The notes beneath the pieces are model-generated. The model worked only from the letters and a program-made list of their open reading frames with translations, made no database searches and had not been told where the DNA came from. 64,000 nt of DNA from Vreelandella halophila (GTDB lineage: Bacteria > Pseudomonadota > Gammaproteobacteria > Pseudomonadales > Oleiphilaceae), in assembly GCF_009856365.1 (NCBI RefSeq), contig NZ_WMEX01000004.1:186001-250000 (forward strand). The letters are read 5' to 3'. How positions within the stretch are numbered: position 1 is the first letter of the stretch; each line of letters begins with the position of its first letter. Of the stretch, positions 1 through 10,730 are shown in pieces. A program made the translations under genes and the position numbers.

Positions 1-852
1 TTCAAGTTGGGTGGTTTTCTGGTCCAGGACGTTGGCGACCGTGGTGAACTCGAAGTGATTGACGAGTTTTTCCAGGCGGGCCTCGCACTTGTCCAGGTTG
101 TTGTAGTGGCGGAACTTGGAGAACCATTTGACGTCGAACCGGGGCTGGCCGGGGTCGATCTCCCAGGGGTGCAGGTAGAAGATGAAGGGCTCGCCCTGGC
201 GGTTCGCCTGGTTCAGGCCCCACTGGCTGAACGGGTACGGGTAGAGCCGGAAGTAGCCGCCGCCGGCGATGGGCAGCGTGAAACCGCCGAGCTTGAGCGT
301 TGTCAGCGGGAACTCGATCAGCTCATGGCCCTTGTCCGTGGTCAGGCGGTGGGGCCAGCGGGGGCTGCCCGGCATGCCGTAGCGGTCGTGGCGGACCGGG
401 AATATGGAGGAATCCCAGGTAAAGCCGGCCTCGGCCAGGATGTCCAGGGCCCAGCGGGACTCGTTGGTGATGGAATAGCTCGCGGCGCGGTAGCCGTTCA
501 CGGGCTGCTGCACCTGGTCTTCCAGCAGGGCCTTGGACTTGATGGTTTCCTCGCGGAAAACCTCCGGGGTCTGGTTGTAGACGAGTTGGTGGCTGTAGCC
601 GTGGCTGGCGATCTCGTGGCCGGCTTCGGCGATGCGTCGCACCAGCGCGGGGGATTTCTCCGCCACCCAGCCCAGTACGAAAAAGGTTCCCTTGACGCCC
701 GCATTGTCGAAGATCTCCAGCAGACGGTCGGTGTTGGCCTCACAGCGGTATTCCATGGACGACCAGTCCTCGGGGCTGATCACCTCGGAAAGGGCCGCCA
801 CGTGGAAGTAGTCTTCCACATCGATGGTCAGTGCATTGGATATGCTGTTCAT
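1..852 (-). CDS. XrtA-system polysaccharide deacetylase (partial, 3' end outside window)
   Basis: NodB-type carbohydrate esterase of the XrtA/PEP-CTERM exopolysaccharide clusters; it should remove N- or O-acetyl groups from the exported polymer. The 284 visible residues start MNSISNALTIDVEDYFHV. They contain the metal-binding SHGYSH pattern, GYRAASYSI, and the family-typical DSSIFPVRHDRYGMP and FYLHPWEID segments. No signal peptide is evident. No stop codon is reached before the window edge, but the length is already close to that usual for the family, so only a few residues should be missing. The gene begins 3 bases after the upstream beta-barrel gene, so it is in the same operon. Family assignment is from remembered motifs. 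Confidence 0.9.
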   Translation of the reverse strand, partial: MNSISNALTIDVEDYFHVAALSEVISPEDWSSMEYRCEANTDRLLEIFDNAGVKGTFFVLGWVAEKSPALVRRIAEAGHEIASHGYSHQLVYNQTPEVFREETIKSKALLEDQVQQPVNGYRAASYSITNESRWALDILAEAGFTWDSSIFPVRHDRYGMPGSPRWPHRLTTDKGHELIEFPLTTLKLGGFTLPIAGGGYFRLYPYPFSQWGLNQANRQGEPFIFYLHPWEIDPGQPRFDVKWFSKFRHYNNLDKCEARLEKLVNHFEFTTVANVLDQKTTQLE

Positions 853-6882: not shown

Positions 6883-6982
6883 TTTGTAACGCTGCTGGTT
6901 TTGAGGTTTTTCTCACTGTCTCGTCAACCCAGTCACCATGAGGCACAATATCCGCTCTTCATCAACGAGGGACAGCAGCAAC

Positions 6983-8263
6983 ATGGCAACCGTTCAGGAC
7001 GTTCGGATCGGAATCATCGGGCTTGGTTACGTAGGGCTGCCTCTGGCAGTGGAATTCGGCAGGCTGTATCACACCACCGGTTTTGACATCGACAGCCAGA
7101 GAATTGGCCAGCTCCAGGATGGGTTCGATGACACACGTGAGGTGGAACCCGATGAGCTGGCGGCCTCAGAGCGGCTCCGGTTCTCCTCTGAACTGGAAAG
7201 CATCCGTGACTGCAACGTCTACATCGTAACCGTCCCCACACCAATCGACGCCTTCAAAACACCCGATTTCGGACCTCTGAGGGCTGCTTCCCGATCTGTC
7301 GCCCAGGTGCTCAGTAAGGGGGACACCGTGATCTACGAGTCCACGGTCTACCCCGGGGCTACCGAGGAAATCTGCATTCCTATCCTGGAAGCCGAATCCG
7401 GCCTGACCTTCAACCAGGATTTCTTTGCCGGCTACAGCCCGGAACGGATCAACCCGGGCGACAAGGAACACAGGGTCACCAGCATTCTCAAGGTGACGTC
7501 CGGCTCCACGCCGGAAACAGCGCGCTTTGTCGATGACCTGTACGCCTCTGTTATTACGGCGGGCACCCATCTGGCCAGCTCAATCCGGGTCGCGGAAGCC
7601 GCCAAGGTCATTGAGAACACCCAGCGGGACGTGAATATTGCTCTGGTCAACGAACTGTCCCTGATTTTTGAACGCCTGGGGATCGATACCGAGGAAGTGC
7701 TGCAGGCCGCCGGGACCAAGTGGAACTTCCTGCCCTTCCGCCCCGGGCTGGTGGGTGGCCACTGCATTGGCGTGGACCCCTACTACCTGACCCACAAGGC
7801 CCAGGCTGTCGGCTACCACCCGGAGATGATCCTATCCGGGCGACGTCTCAATGACCGTATGGGCGCCGAGGTCGCGGAACGCGTGATCAAGATGATGACC
7901 CGCAGCCGCATCCAGGTGGTGGACTCCAACGTCCTGATCATGGGGCTGACGTTTAAGGAGAACTGCCCGGACATCCGCAACACCCGCGCCATCGACCTGG
8001 TCCACGAATTCCAGGACTACCATGCCAACGTTGACGTGTGGGACCCCTGGGCGGACGCGGATGAAGTCCGGGAGGAATACGGTATCGAGCTGGTTAAGAG
8101 CCCTGCCGAGGGGCATTACGACGCGATGATCCTCGCGGTGGGTCATCGGGACTTTGTGGCGCTCGGTGCGGAGAAGCTGCGGGCCCTGGGTAAGCCCGCC
8201 GGCTCCATACTGTTTGATGTGAAGTACGCACTGCCCAAGCAGGCTGTCGACGGACGACTGTGA
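6983..8263 (+). CDS. tviB: UDP-N-acetylglucosamine 6-dehydrogenase (TviB-like)
   Basis: 426-residue nucleotide-sugar dehydrogenase that oxidises UDP-GlcNAc (or a related sugar) at C6 to the uronic acid with two NAD+. The NAD-binding loop GLGYVGLP is at residues 13–20. The catalytic cysteine is Cys261 in [16 protein letters not shown]. The C-terminal domain contains [30 protein letters not shown] resembles the Vi-antigen TviB branch more than UDP-glucose dehydrogenase. The ATG at 6983 ([10 protein letters not shown]) is preferred to 6938 because it places the Rossmann fold at the N terminus, although the upstream GAGG is 12 bases away. It probably supplies an acidic sugar to the divergent exopolysaccharide operon. 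No TviC-like epimerase gene is adjacent. Confidence 0.88.
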
Positions 8264-8314
8264 GGCCTCGGTGATCGCTCTCGCGAGTGTCAGTTTACTT
8301 TACAGGCAAAGGAC

Positions 8315-8335
8315 AAGTGGTCCTCCGAACCACTT
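8315..8335. promoter_or_regulatory. Perfect dyad upstream of PEP-CTERM gene, candidate activator site
   Basis: AAGTGGT (8315–8321) and ACCACTT (8329–8335) form a 7-base perfect dyad around a 7-base spacer. It is centred about 69 bases upstream of the start predicted from the sigma-54 element at 8368. No T-run follows, so it is a poor terminator. An enhancer-type site for a sigma-54 activator such as PrsR is possible; the half-site differs from the TCCAGT dyad before the exopolysaccharide operon. Confidence 0.35.
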
Positions 8336-8367
8336 ATAACTAACTGTATTTTAAGGCTATAAATTTA

Positions 8368-8383
8368 TGGCCTGCTCCTTGCA
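8368..8383 (+). promoter_or_regulatory. Sigma-54 (-24/-12) promoter of the PEP-CTERM gene
   Basis: TGGCCTGCTCCTTGCA: GG (8369–8370) and GC (8381–8382) are separated by exactly 10 bases. The -12 half CTTGCA matches consensus and the -24 half is TGGC. Initiation would be near 8394, 34 bases before the ATG at 8428. PEP-CTERM genes are known targets of PrsR and RpoN, which supports the call. Confidence 0.78.
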
Positions 8384-8420
8384 TAAGCTTTCATGCGTTC
8401 CACATCATATGCAAGGAGCA
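8373..8420 (+). promoter_or_regulatory. 13-base inverted repeat that can sequester the PEP-CTERM gene RBS
   Basis: TGCTCCTTGCATA (8373–8385) is perfectly complementary to TATGCAAGGAGCA (8408–8420), with a 22-base loop. The right arm contains the Shine-Dalgarno AAGGAG (8413–8418), 9 bases before the ATG. The left arm overlaps the -12 element. RNA reading through from tviB would contain both arms and could fold the RBS away. RNA from the sigma-54 promoter (start about 8394) would lack the left arm. The repeat is seen directly; the function is inferred. Confidence 0.6.
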
Positions 8421-8427
8421 TAGTGCG

Positions 8428-9153
8428 ATGAAAACCTATACAAAATTGTTTAGCGTCGGTCTGCTGGCGGTAGGGGTAGCTACAGCGAATGCAGCGCCTG
8501 TATTGAAAATCAGCGGTGAGGGCGCAGCCAACGCCAATGCGGCCCAGGCCTCGTTCCTCAGCACGCTGCAACCCGGCTATGCGCCGCCCGAGGATTTTGA
8601 AAGCTACGACGTAGCCACCGACTTTAACGGTCAGATGACGTCCTTTGCCACCAGTGTCGGGACCTTTGACGTGACTCAGCCGGCTTTTAATTCACCGACT
8701 GATAGCTGTAATGATGAAGGTTTCCAGTGTGGTGCTGGCATTGCGGTCCTTAACGCTGATGAGACACCGTTCAACGGCCGGTTTGCCACGTCCCCCAGCC
8801 AGTGGCTGGACAGCATGGATGCGCAGAGCGTGAAGTTCACACCGGATGCTGATAACAACGCGGTCGGTTTTTTCATGACTGACCCGAATGACGCGGGCGG
8901 CCGCTTCAGCATCGATGGGTTCGATTTCGCGTTCAGCGACGTTTTCGGGAAATCCCTGGGTAGTGGCGGCCTGTTCTACATCTCACTGTATGATGGCGAG
9001 GGGCTCGACAACTTCGAGATCCACTCCAACGATCCGAACGATGGTTATGGCATCGACGACGTCACCGTCGGCCGTGTGCCGGAGCCTGGCACCCTTGCGC
9101 TGCTTGGCCTGGGTCTGGCGGGTCTTGGCTTCAGCTACCGCCGCCGTGCCTGA
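8428..9153 (+). CDS. PEP-CTERM sorting-domain exported protein
   Basis: 241-residue secreted protein. An N-terminal signal peptide (about residues 1–23, ending ATANA) directs Sec export. Residues 217–241 carry the PEP-CTERM sorting signal: VPEPGT, a hydrophobic stretch LALLGLGLAGLGF, and the basic end YRRRA. XrtA cleaves such signals, so this is a likely client of the exopolysaccharide/XrtA system encoded across the tviB gene. The middle is acidic, with no catalytic motif I recognise, and has a possible disulfide pair (DSCNDEGFQC). RBS AAGGAG lies 9 bases before the ATG. Its specific function is unknown; relatives act in floc or biofilm matrix. Confidence 0.92.
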   Translation: MKTYTKLFSVGLLAVGVATANAAPVLKISGEGAANANAAQASFLSTLQPGYAPPEDFESYDVATDFNGQMTSFATSVGTFDVTQPAFNSPTDSCNDEGFQCGAGIAVLNADETPFNGRFATSPSQWLDSMDAQSVKFTPDADNNAVGFFMTDPNDAGGRFSIDGFDFAFSDVFGKSLGSGGLFYISLYDGEGLDNFEIHSNDPNDGYGIDDVTVGRVPEPGTLALLGLGLAGLGFSYRRRA

Positions 9154-9178
9154 TTGCCCTGTAGGGCTTAGAACTGGA

Positions 9179-9208
9179 ACGGCACCCTTATGGGTGCCGT
9201 TTTTCTTT
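9179..9208 (+). terminator. Rho-independent terminator after the PEP-CTERM gene
   Basis: ACGGCACCC (9179–9187), loop TTAT, GGGTGCCGT (9192–9200), then TTTTCTTT. A perfect 9-base stem with a T-rich tail, 25 bases after the stop codon. Confidence 0.92.
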
Positions 9209-9242
9209 CTGGATACTTAACAGAAAATAAACGTCAGTTCAT

Positions 9243-10730
9243 TTAACACCCTTCAAACAGGTCCATGAACTCGTTGACCGGGGTATTCTCGAGCGTCTTC
9301 TGATCCTTGCACAGGCTGAAGATCTGCTCGGAGCGCTTCTGGGTGAAGCGGGTCGCCAGGTTGTTGCGGAACTTCTGCTCCAGCAGCGGAATACCGTCTT
9401 TCCGGCGGCGGCGATGCCCGATCGGGTACTCAACGGCCACATTCTCGGTGCTGGATCCGTCCTTGAAGAACACCTGGATGGCGTTGGCAATGGAACGCTT
9501 GTCCTCTTCCAGGTACTCCCGTGTATAGCGCTCGTCCTCCTGAACCTCCATCTTGCCCCGGATCTCGTCGATGATGGGGTTGTTGGCGTGGAAGTCGTCC
9601 TCGTAATGCTCAGCCGTCAGGTTGCCGAAGATCAACGGCACGGCGGTCATGTACTGCAGGCAGTGGTCACGGTCGGCGGCGTTGGCGAGGTTGCCTTCCT
9701 TGGAGATGATGCGGATCGCGGATTCGTGGGTCGTGATAACGATTCTATCGATCTCGTCCAGCCGGTCCTTCACCTGGGGATGCAGTGTCACGGCGGCTTC
9801 AGCGGCGGTCTGGGCGTGGAATTCGGCCGGGAAGGAGATCTTGAACAGGACGTTCTCCATCACGTAGCTGCCGAAATCCTGGGGCAGCTTGAACTGGCGC
9901 TCCCCTTCCGGTTTGACCTGCTGGTCACGGTTGGTCTTGCTGAACAGCACGTCGTAAAAACCCCACTGCGGCGCGCTCAGGGCACCCGGAATGCCCATTT
10001 CCCCACGCTTGGCAATGTCGGCCAGACGCACGGCGCGGGAGGTGGCATCGCCGGCGGCCCAGGACTTGCGCGAGCCGGCGTTGGGCGCGTGACGGTAGGT
10101 GCGCAGGGACTGGCCGTCGACCCAGGCGTGGGAGAGCGCGGCCATGATTTCCTCGCGGCCGCAACCCATGAGCTTGGCGGTCACCGCGGTGGAGGCCACC
10201 TTCACCAGAACCACGTGGTCCAGGCCAACGCGGTTGAACGAGTTCTCCAGTGCCAGCACGCCCTGGATCTCGTGGGCCATGATCATGCCCTCGATCACGT
10301 CGCGCATGGTCAGCGGGTCCTTGCCTTCAGAAACACGCTTCTGTGAGAGGTGATCGGCAATGGCGAGGATGCCGCCAAGGTTGTCTGATGGGTGACCCCA
10401 TTCGGCGGCGAGCCAGGTGTCGTTGTAGTCGAGCCAGCGGATGATGCAGCCGATGTCCCAAGCGGCCTTGACCGGATCCAGGCGGAAGGGGGTTCCGGGC
10501 ACGCGCGCGCCGTTGGGAACCTGGGTGCCTTCAACGATGGGGCCGAGGTGCTTGGTGCACTCGGGGAAACGCAGGGCCAGCAGACCACAGCCGAGGGTGT
10601 CCATCAGGCAGTTACGGGCGGTGTCCAGGGCTTCCTTGCTTTTGATGTTGTAGTCGAGGACGTAGTCCGCGATTTTCTGGATGATGTCGTCGTAGTCCGG
10701 GCGGACGTTGGATTCTACGTTGGCGCTCAT
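9243..10730 (-). CDS. prpD: 2-methylcitrate dehydratase PrpD
   Basis: 495-residue MmgE/PrpD-family enzyme that dehydrates 2-methylcitrate to cis-2-methylaconitate in the methylcitrate cycle of propionate catabolism; cytoplasmic. Recognisable stretches are [38 protein letters not shown] and [20 protein letters not shown]. The length is normal for PrpD of the prpBCD type. It is the last gene of prpB–prpC–prpD on the minus strand. No acnD/prpF pair is present, so this is the PrpD-type pathway. A 155-base gap holding a REP-like palindrome separates it from prpC. Confidence 0.95.

Follow-up and report, generated by a model that had tools for sequence, protein, structure and literature searches.

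A candidate silencer of read-through RNA embedded in the sigma-54 promoter of a PEP-CTERM gene

Can the promoter at which a transcript begins decide whether that transcript is translated? The question is raised by the region upstream of a PEP-CTERM gene of Vreelandella halophila, which lies in a 64,000-nucleotide stretch of contig NZ_WMEX01000004.1 (the whole of this stretch is called the window here). An earlier note on this DNA had claimed that a 13-base inverted repeat can hide the Shine-Dalgarno (SD) sequence of the gene only in read-through RNA, so that translation would be set by promoter identity. We consider a silencer of read-through RNA of the T4 lysozyme type, placed on a chromosomal sigma-54 gene, to be the probable explanation of the repeat. 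The left arm would be an anti-SD embedded in the promoter. RNA entering from the upstream gene would carry both arms and fold into a 13-bp hairpin that hides the SD, and little PEP-CTERM protein would be made from such RNA. A transcript from the PrsR/sigma-54 promoter would start about 9 bases past the left arm, and the same SD nucleotides would then lie, readable, in the loop of a small hairpin. Promoter identity would set translation in this scheme because only the long RNA has the left arm. From what can be observed, namely the sequence, the predicted folds, their conservation and their recurrence, we infer the start site, the existence of the read-through RNA and its effect on translation.

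The principle is known from bacteriophage T4. In gene e, a structure at the SD cuts the synthesis of lysozyme 100-fold; late promoters lie just upstream of the gene, and the RNA they give is made without the 5' portion of the structure (PMC3014915). A similar hiding of the translation site in long RNA is described for I-TevI (PMC2988022). The T4 genes e, soc, 49, I-TevI and their relatives, as far as these accounts go, have the same layout and logic as that proposed here, the long RNA being translated poorly and the RNA from the proximal promoter well. They differ in being phage genes with late promoters and timing control that has been shown experimentally, whereas the window gene lies on a chromosome, encodes a surface protein and has a PrsR/sigma-54 promoter, with the arm over the -12 element and the hairpin a predicted one. 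The window hairpin would work like those of the gene e family, a likeness drawn from the predicted start and folds. A partial survey of the open-access literature found no cellular parallel of a T4-type silencer. In the transposase genes of IS10 and IS50, fold-back hides the SD or the start only in RNA from outside; those are mobile elements with terminal repeats, whereas the window gene is a resident gene. The earlier note knew of no described case in PEP-CTERM genes, and the open-access papers surveyed do not contradict this, but the mechanism as such has its precedents in phage T4.

The inverted repeat and its promoter

The features of the region are as follows.

6938..8263, + strand: tviB-type UDP-GlcNAc dehydrogenase gene (NF011729 TviB, 608.6 bits against a cut-off of 592)
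8288..8304, + strand: motif 1, predicted PrsR enhancer site, TGTCAGTTTACTTTACA, which fits the description of Haft et al. 2006
8368..8383, + strand: predicted sigma-54 -24/-12 promoter, TGGCCTGCTCCTTGCA, from pattern match and context
8373..8385, + strand: left arm, putative anti-SD, overlapping the -12 element (inverted-repeat listing, orthologue comparison)
8394, + strand: predicted sigma-54 transcription start, from promoter numbering
8408..8420, + strand: right arm, predicted partner of the left arm in read-through RNA (repeat listing, folding)
8408..8422, + strand: predicted local hairpin TATGC-AAGGA-GCATA of RNA that lacks the left arm, with the SD in the loop (minimum-energy fold of 8394-8450)
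8413..8418, + strand: SD, AAGGAG, nine bases before ATG 8428
8428..9153, + strand: PEP-CTERM protein gene, 241 aa (PF07589 and TIGR02595 over cut-off)
9243-10730, - strand: prpD, convergent neighbour of the PEP-CTERM gene (ORF list of the window)

The claimed repeat is real: TGCTCCTTGCATA (8373-8385) and TATGCAAGGAGCA (8408-8420) are complementary at 13 of 13 positions by Watson-Crick pairing and are separated by a 22-base loop. AAGGAG is present within the right arm and the -12 region within the left arm, as the earlier note had stated. Among the 15 inverted pairs listed for the whole window (arms of at least 13 nt, within 60 nt, seed 10), this repeat alone is 100% complementary. Two others have, like it, arms that are clear of each other; the remaining 12 are overlapping palindromes. 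No known RNA family was found in the window at gathering threshold. An AT-rich near-palindrome, AGGCTATAAATTTATGGCCT (8354-8373), overlaps the start of the -24 element.

The promoter assignment relies on context. TGGCCTGCTCCTTGCA is the sole match to TGGCNNGNNNNTTGCW in the window, and 0.53 matches are expected from shuffled sequence, so that the match by itself is weak. According to Haft et al. 2006 (PMC1569441), PEP-CTERM genes of proteobacteria are preceded by motif 1, which is 17 nt long with TTTACA at its end and is followed, after a spacer with a mean of 62.8 nt, by a sigma-54 motif with GG at -24 and GC at -12; PrsR was proposed as the activator. The spacer from the end of motif 1 at 8304 to TGGC is 63 bases, and this together with motif 1 is why the site is read as a promoter. 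The genome encodes PrsR (TIGR02915, 687.9 bits against an NCBIfam cut-off of 502.6), so that motif 1, the spacer of about 63 nt, GG/GC, a PEP-CTERM gene and PrsR are all present. Stretches resembling motif 1 are present in orthologues, and the best upstream site scores at least 15 of 18 (rounded raw score) in 144 of the 154 Halomonadaceae PEP-CTERM genes listed. For Aquincola pepA, a start was determined downstream of TGGCAC/CTGCTT (PMC9850573). These promoters have motif 1, the spacer of about 63 bases, the -24/-12 element and a long upstream region in common with the window promoter; an SD-complementary arm is not mentioned in the available text of PMC1569441 and PMC9850573, and is a feature of the window. 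Given motif 1 and its spacer, PrsR, the family-wide sites and the pepA start, a start at about 8394 is well founded, though predicted. The position itself is presumably 12 bases past the C of the -12 element, by sigma-54 promoter numbering, which leaves it 9 bases beyond the left arm.

Read-through RNA could come from tviB, which is codirectional with the PEP-CTERM gene and whose stop lies 164 bases before ATG 8428; it is a possible source, judged by position. No terminator-like or sigma-70-like site was found in 8150-8500.

Predicted folds of the long and short RNA

Folding of 8366-8450 gives -23.4 kcal/mol (z -2.44; 3 of 200 shuffles were as low) and places the SD within a stable helix, while the RNA from the predicted start (8394-8450) gives -8.1 kcal/mol (z -0.02). 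The predicted free fraction of the SD is 0.00 for 5' ends at 8264-8374, 0.09 at 8376, 0.40 at 8378 and 0.54 at 8382. It is 0.54-0.81 across 8382-8398, with 0.66 at 8394 and a nearly flat course (0.62-0.66) for 5' ends at 8388-8396. The switch in exposure thus falls inside the left arm, with about 12 bases to spare before the predicted start. The same switch is predicted for V. utahensis (0.01 free against 0.68), in which the hairpin TATGC-AAGGA-GCATA has identical letters. The AUG, by comparison, is mostly paired whichever RNA is folded: its free fraction is 0.02-0.13 when the 5' end lies at or before 8374 and 0.24 when it lies at 8394, which may weaken the contrast between long and short RNA.

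The hairpin might instead act on read-through RNA in another way, as an RNase target, as protection of the 3' end of the upstream mRNA or as a pause site, SD hiding being a side effect. A strong structure lies here between genes where no terminator-like site was found, and it could cap the 3' end of tviB mRNA after trimming. We nevertheless hold such a role to be very unlikely: the arms differ between groups of orthologues with different upstream genes, tviB and prpD, and the excess of complementarity described below peaks at the SD.

Arms in orthologous promoters

A profile built from nine orthologues matched 37 of 163 Halomonadaceae genomes; one match (G002) ends at a contig edge, which leaves 36 readable orthologues. 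All 36 have a -24/-12-like site scoring 15-18 of 18. The earlier note had named homologues that keep the promoter and lack the complementarity as the finding that would speak against its reading. With 23 of 36 this is close to what was found, and the longest complementary run among these 23 is 7 bases (G038, G098, G132); the other 13 have an arm, which in 11 of them is 8 or more bases long. The arm is therefore not a constant part of these promoters.

The arms fall into two groups. Group A consists of the window and V. utahensis DSM 3051 (G001), in which 11 of the 13 pairs are kept; its right arm is identical to that of the window, and the two outermost bases of its left arm differ and are unpaired, with no compensation. 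Group B comprises 11 genomes (G050, G151, G188, G159, G118, G145, G029, G052, G135, G189 and G104). Its left arm has the core TACTCC or ACTCC at -9..+6, is unrelated to the window arm and fits its own SD, with 6 Watson-Crick pairs in G135, 7 in G188 and 8-12 in the other nine; the arm of G029 reaches 16 pairs if G-U is counted. Three broken group B genes, with 123 (L074, in G029), 108 (L269, in G104) and 92 (L064, in G189) open codons, have promoter and arm intact.

Conservation in group B was scored by column over ten rows, with pairwise identity down to 0.61. It is 0.97 in the -24 box and 1.00 in the -12 box against 0.67 in the spacer between them, 0.96 in the left-arm core against 0.60 before and 0.59 just after it, 0.99 in the right arm, and 0.87 in a later stretch of the loop. 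The named structure pairs 86.2% of cells, against 21-58% when slid. Compensatory changes in both arms, proposed in the earlier note as evidence, were looked for within group B, and no two-sided change was counted, as the SD is invariant; lack of variation in the SD also makes the shuffle control uninformative. One outer position that faces T is G in 5 of 10 rows, A in 4 and neither in 1, so that 9 of 10 rows are able to pair there as RNA. In G151 the right arm has C in place of T and the left possibly G in place of A, which could be a matched double change only if a one-base gap is moved from its MAFFT placement. The SD is predicted to be 0.00-0.06 free in read-through RNA and 0.13-0.95 free from +1 in the nine rows scored, among which the G189 row is based on a wrong start; the lowest values from +1 are 0.13 and 0.14, in two of the nine rows. 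Since the group B arm extends over the predicted start, to +1..+6, part of it could sit in the sigma-54 RNA.

The near-invariance of the right arm and, almost to the same degree, of the left core in group B is operator-like, and the distance from the start of one arm to the start of the other is similar in both groups, at 35 bases in the window and 33-37 between the GTACTCC and GGAGTAC cores. The arms could accordingly be half-sites of a regulator on the DNA, placed across promoter and start, with SD complementarity incidental. We think this very unlikely. Groups A and B share no half-site beyond the SD complement, and the G or A opposite T is pairable in RNA while it breaks exact DNA symmetry. 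Of 124 genomes of the group B genus, 25 contain GTACTCC-N15-35-GGAGTAC, against 5 for a reversed-pattern control; in 9 of the 25 it lies at the PEP-CTERM locus. A general operator of this kind was considered and rejected: in the other 16 genomes the 16 loci are within open frames of 127-662 aa (a further match, in G193, is outside the set). As these loci lie across open frames, no second promoter was seen among the 16 checked, which counts against a regulator site.

The maximum-likelihood protein tree covers 26 of the 37 orthologues; it omits G029, G138, G002, G156, G104 and the six most distant (G185, G051, G023, G011, G028, G038), and includes G189 as a fragment from a wrong start. Arm groups A and B stand apart in it with arm-less rows between them, two changes are needed, and 0% of bootstrap trees unite the groups; the starred branches, taken alone, are compatible with a single origin of the arm. 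Either the arm was gained twice, or an old one was lost in some lineages and rewritten in others; it may thus have arisen more than once in Halomonadaceae, a family of salt-loving bacteria.

In the window and in V. utahensis, tviB is the codirectional gene upstream. In 21 of 28 loci searched, including all ten group B loci of the set, prpD lies upstream in the same direction, and in five of the 28 neither gene does. The two types of arm thus face different sources of read-through. In the window (8263-10730) the PEP-CTERM gene has tviB (+) on one side and prpD (-) on the other, and in those 21 loci it follows prpD in the same direction, so that the neighbourhood was rearranged. As prpD also precedes eleven arm-less orthologues, the neighbour alone does not predict an arm. 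Terminators upstream of arm-less orthologues were seen, by eye, in G035, G125 and G139 only. An upstream terminator as a trade-off for a missing arm was considered; three cases are too few to claim it.

Complementarity in other PEP-CTERM promoters

The longest Watson-Crick run between -26..+6 and the 18 bases before the start codon was compared with the expectation from swapped pairs. The first set was drawn from the 154 Halomonadaceae PEP-CTERM genes listed, of which 109 passed the score and leader filter; with 3 orthologues added it holds 112. Runs of 8 or more bases occur in 13 of these 112, against 1.4 expected. When groups A and B are removed, such runs are found in 4 of 101 listed genes (0.7 expected), and runs of 7 or more in 9 (2.8 expected). 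A larger set holds 171 listed Halomonadaceae units in 79 families (site score at least 15.2, leaders of 19-86 bases). Both counts are samples of the family, as the loci were drawn from those listed. Runs of 8 or more are found at -26..+6 in 12 of the 171 units (1.0 expected; family-weighted, 4.37 of 79 against 0.43) and at -118..-86 in none (0.8 expected). Inside the leaders downstream of +6, none was found in 3209 bases. A permutation by family gives 0.00025, or 0.00075 without the family of the window; group B, which was known before the test, is included.

The excess of complementarity to the promoter is strongest at the SD window. At 8 or more bases, 12 units match there (1.1 expected), 2 match in the start-codon window (0.9 expected), and 2, 1 and 0 match in windows further into the gene (0.7, 0.5 and 0.9 expected). 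With the threshold at 7 or more, an excess is also present after family weighting in the start-codon window (5.67 against 1.80), and 7 units match in one coding window (2.3 expected). The peak at the SD argues both against regulator half-sites and against another role of the hairpin. A second excess, at -86..-54 in the first set (6 against 0.6 at 8 or more), is nearly gone after family weighting (0.58 against 0.49 at -90..-58); the family-weighted values are 2.25 against 0.58 for -62..-30 and 8.20 against 1.45 for the whole of -86..+2. As a control, ordinary genes were taken from the window and from seven genomes, and 95 of the 410 called were kept; 0 of 95 have runs of 8 or more (0.2 expected) and 3 have runs of 7 or more (1.1 expected). 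Units from other families of the class (47 of 91 frames kept) have 0 of 47 (0.15 expected), which is weak evidence, since about 2.6 would be expected even at the Halomonadaceae rate.

The complementarity could also be a functionless by-product of a purine-rich SD facing a promoter spacer with CTCC beside TTGCA, produced by chance or local duplication. Most orthologues are without an arm, which would fit this. In two other PEP-CTERM families, recovered with the proteins of L096 and L081 as queries, the arm is sporadic, relatives of two other arm-bearing genes mostly having none and one close pair sharing it; and no arm was found in the units sampled from the rest of the class. Against a by-product, a model built from the promoter columns of 109 family promoters (window and relatives included) and real SDs gives a chance of 5e-5 per promoter for a match of 11 or more bases and, by extrapolation, about 2.5e-6 for 13. 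Eleven bases are kept in V. utahensis, group B retains a matched arm at identities down to 0.61, and the excess over swapped pairs persists without both arm groups. We judge a by-product unlikely.

For a silencer of read-through RNA, and hence for the claim that promoter identity sets translation, speak the geometry, the promoter class, the predicted exposure, the pairs kept in V. utahensis, the separate arm of group B, the codirectional tviB with no terminator-like site found after it and the SD-centred excess. The claim is held back by the outer pairs lost in V. utahensis, the lack of a counted two-sided change in group B and the many arm-less orthologues. Judging from these sequences, the feature is neither unique to the window gene nor a fixed part of PEP-CTERM promoters. 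A wider proposal, which we put forward tentatively and consider possible rather than probable, is that the PrsR/sigma-54 regulon of Halomonadaceae repeatedly evolves anti-SD arms in the DNA immediately before +1, which would confine the synthesis of exosortase substrates to PrsR-ordered RNA, and that the arm is reinvented when the promoter, the SD or the upstream neighbour changes. If true, this would be a regulon-level chromosomal use of the T4 lysozyme principle, with the promoter encoding a silencer of foreign transcription. Activator-dependent sigma-54 genes would have a second lock against leakage from their neighbours. Transcription of such a gene would be no guide to its translation, the same coding sequence having a different fate by promoter. 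An anti-SD just upstream of +1 would also be a prediction for which other alternative-sigma regulons can be scanned.

Other leader features were seen at PEP-CTERM loci. One close pair, L185 and L186, has an anti-SD arm of 10-11 bases far upstream, at -70 (GGTGACACTC(C) / GGAGTGTCACC), which was not found in more distant relatives among those listed. A PhrS sRNA match (Rfam, 41.5 bits, threshold 37) lies at the PEP-CTERM locus L129, at 455-681 (-). In 4 of the 10 Halomonadaceae PEP-CTERM loci scanned, matches over threshold to the c-di-GMP-I riboswitch lie at or near the leaders, where they are a possible second leader control in the PEP-CTERM regulon:

L112:748-822, - strand: c-di-GMP-I riboswitch match
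L113:768-842, - strand: c-di-GMP-I riboswitch match
L102:2265-2350, - strand: c-di-GMP-I riboswitch match
L129:910-987, + strand: c-di-GMP-I riboswitch match
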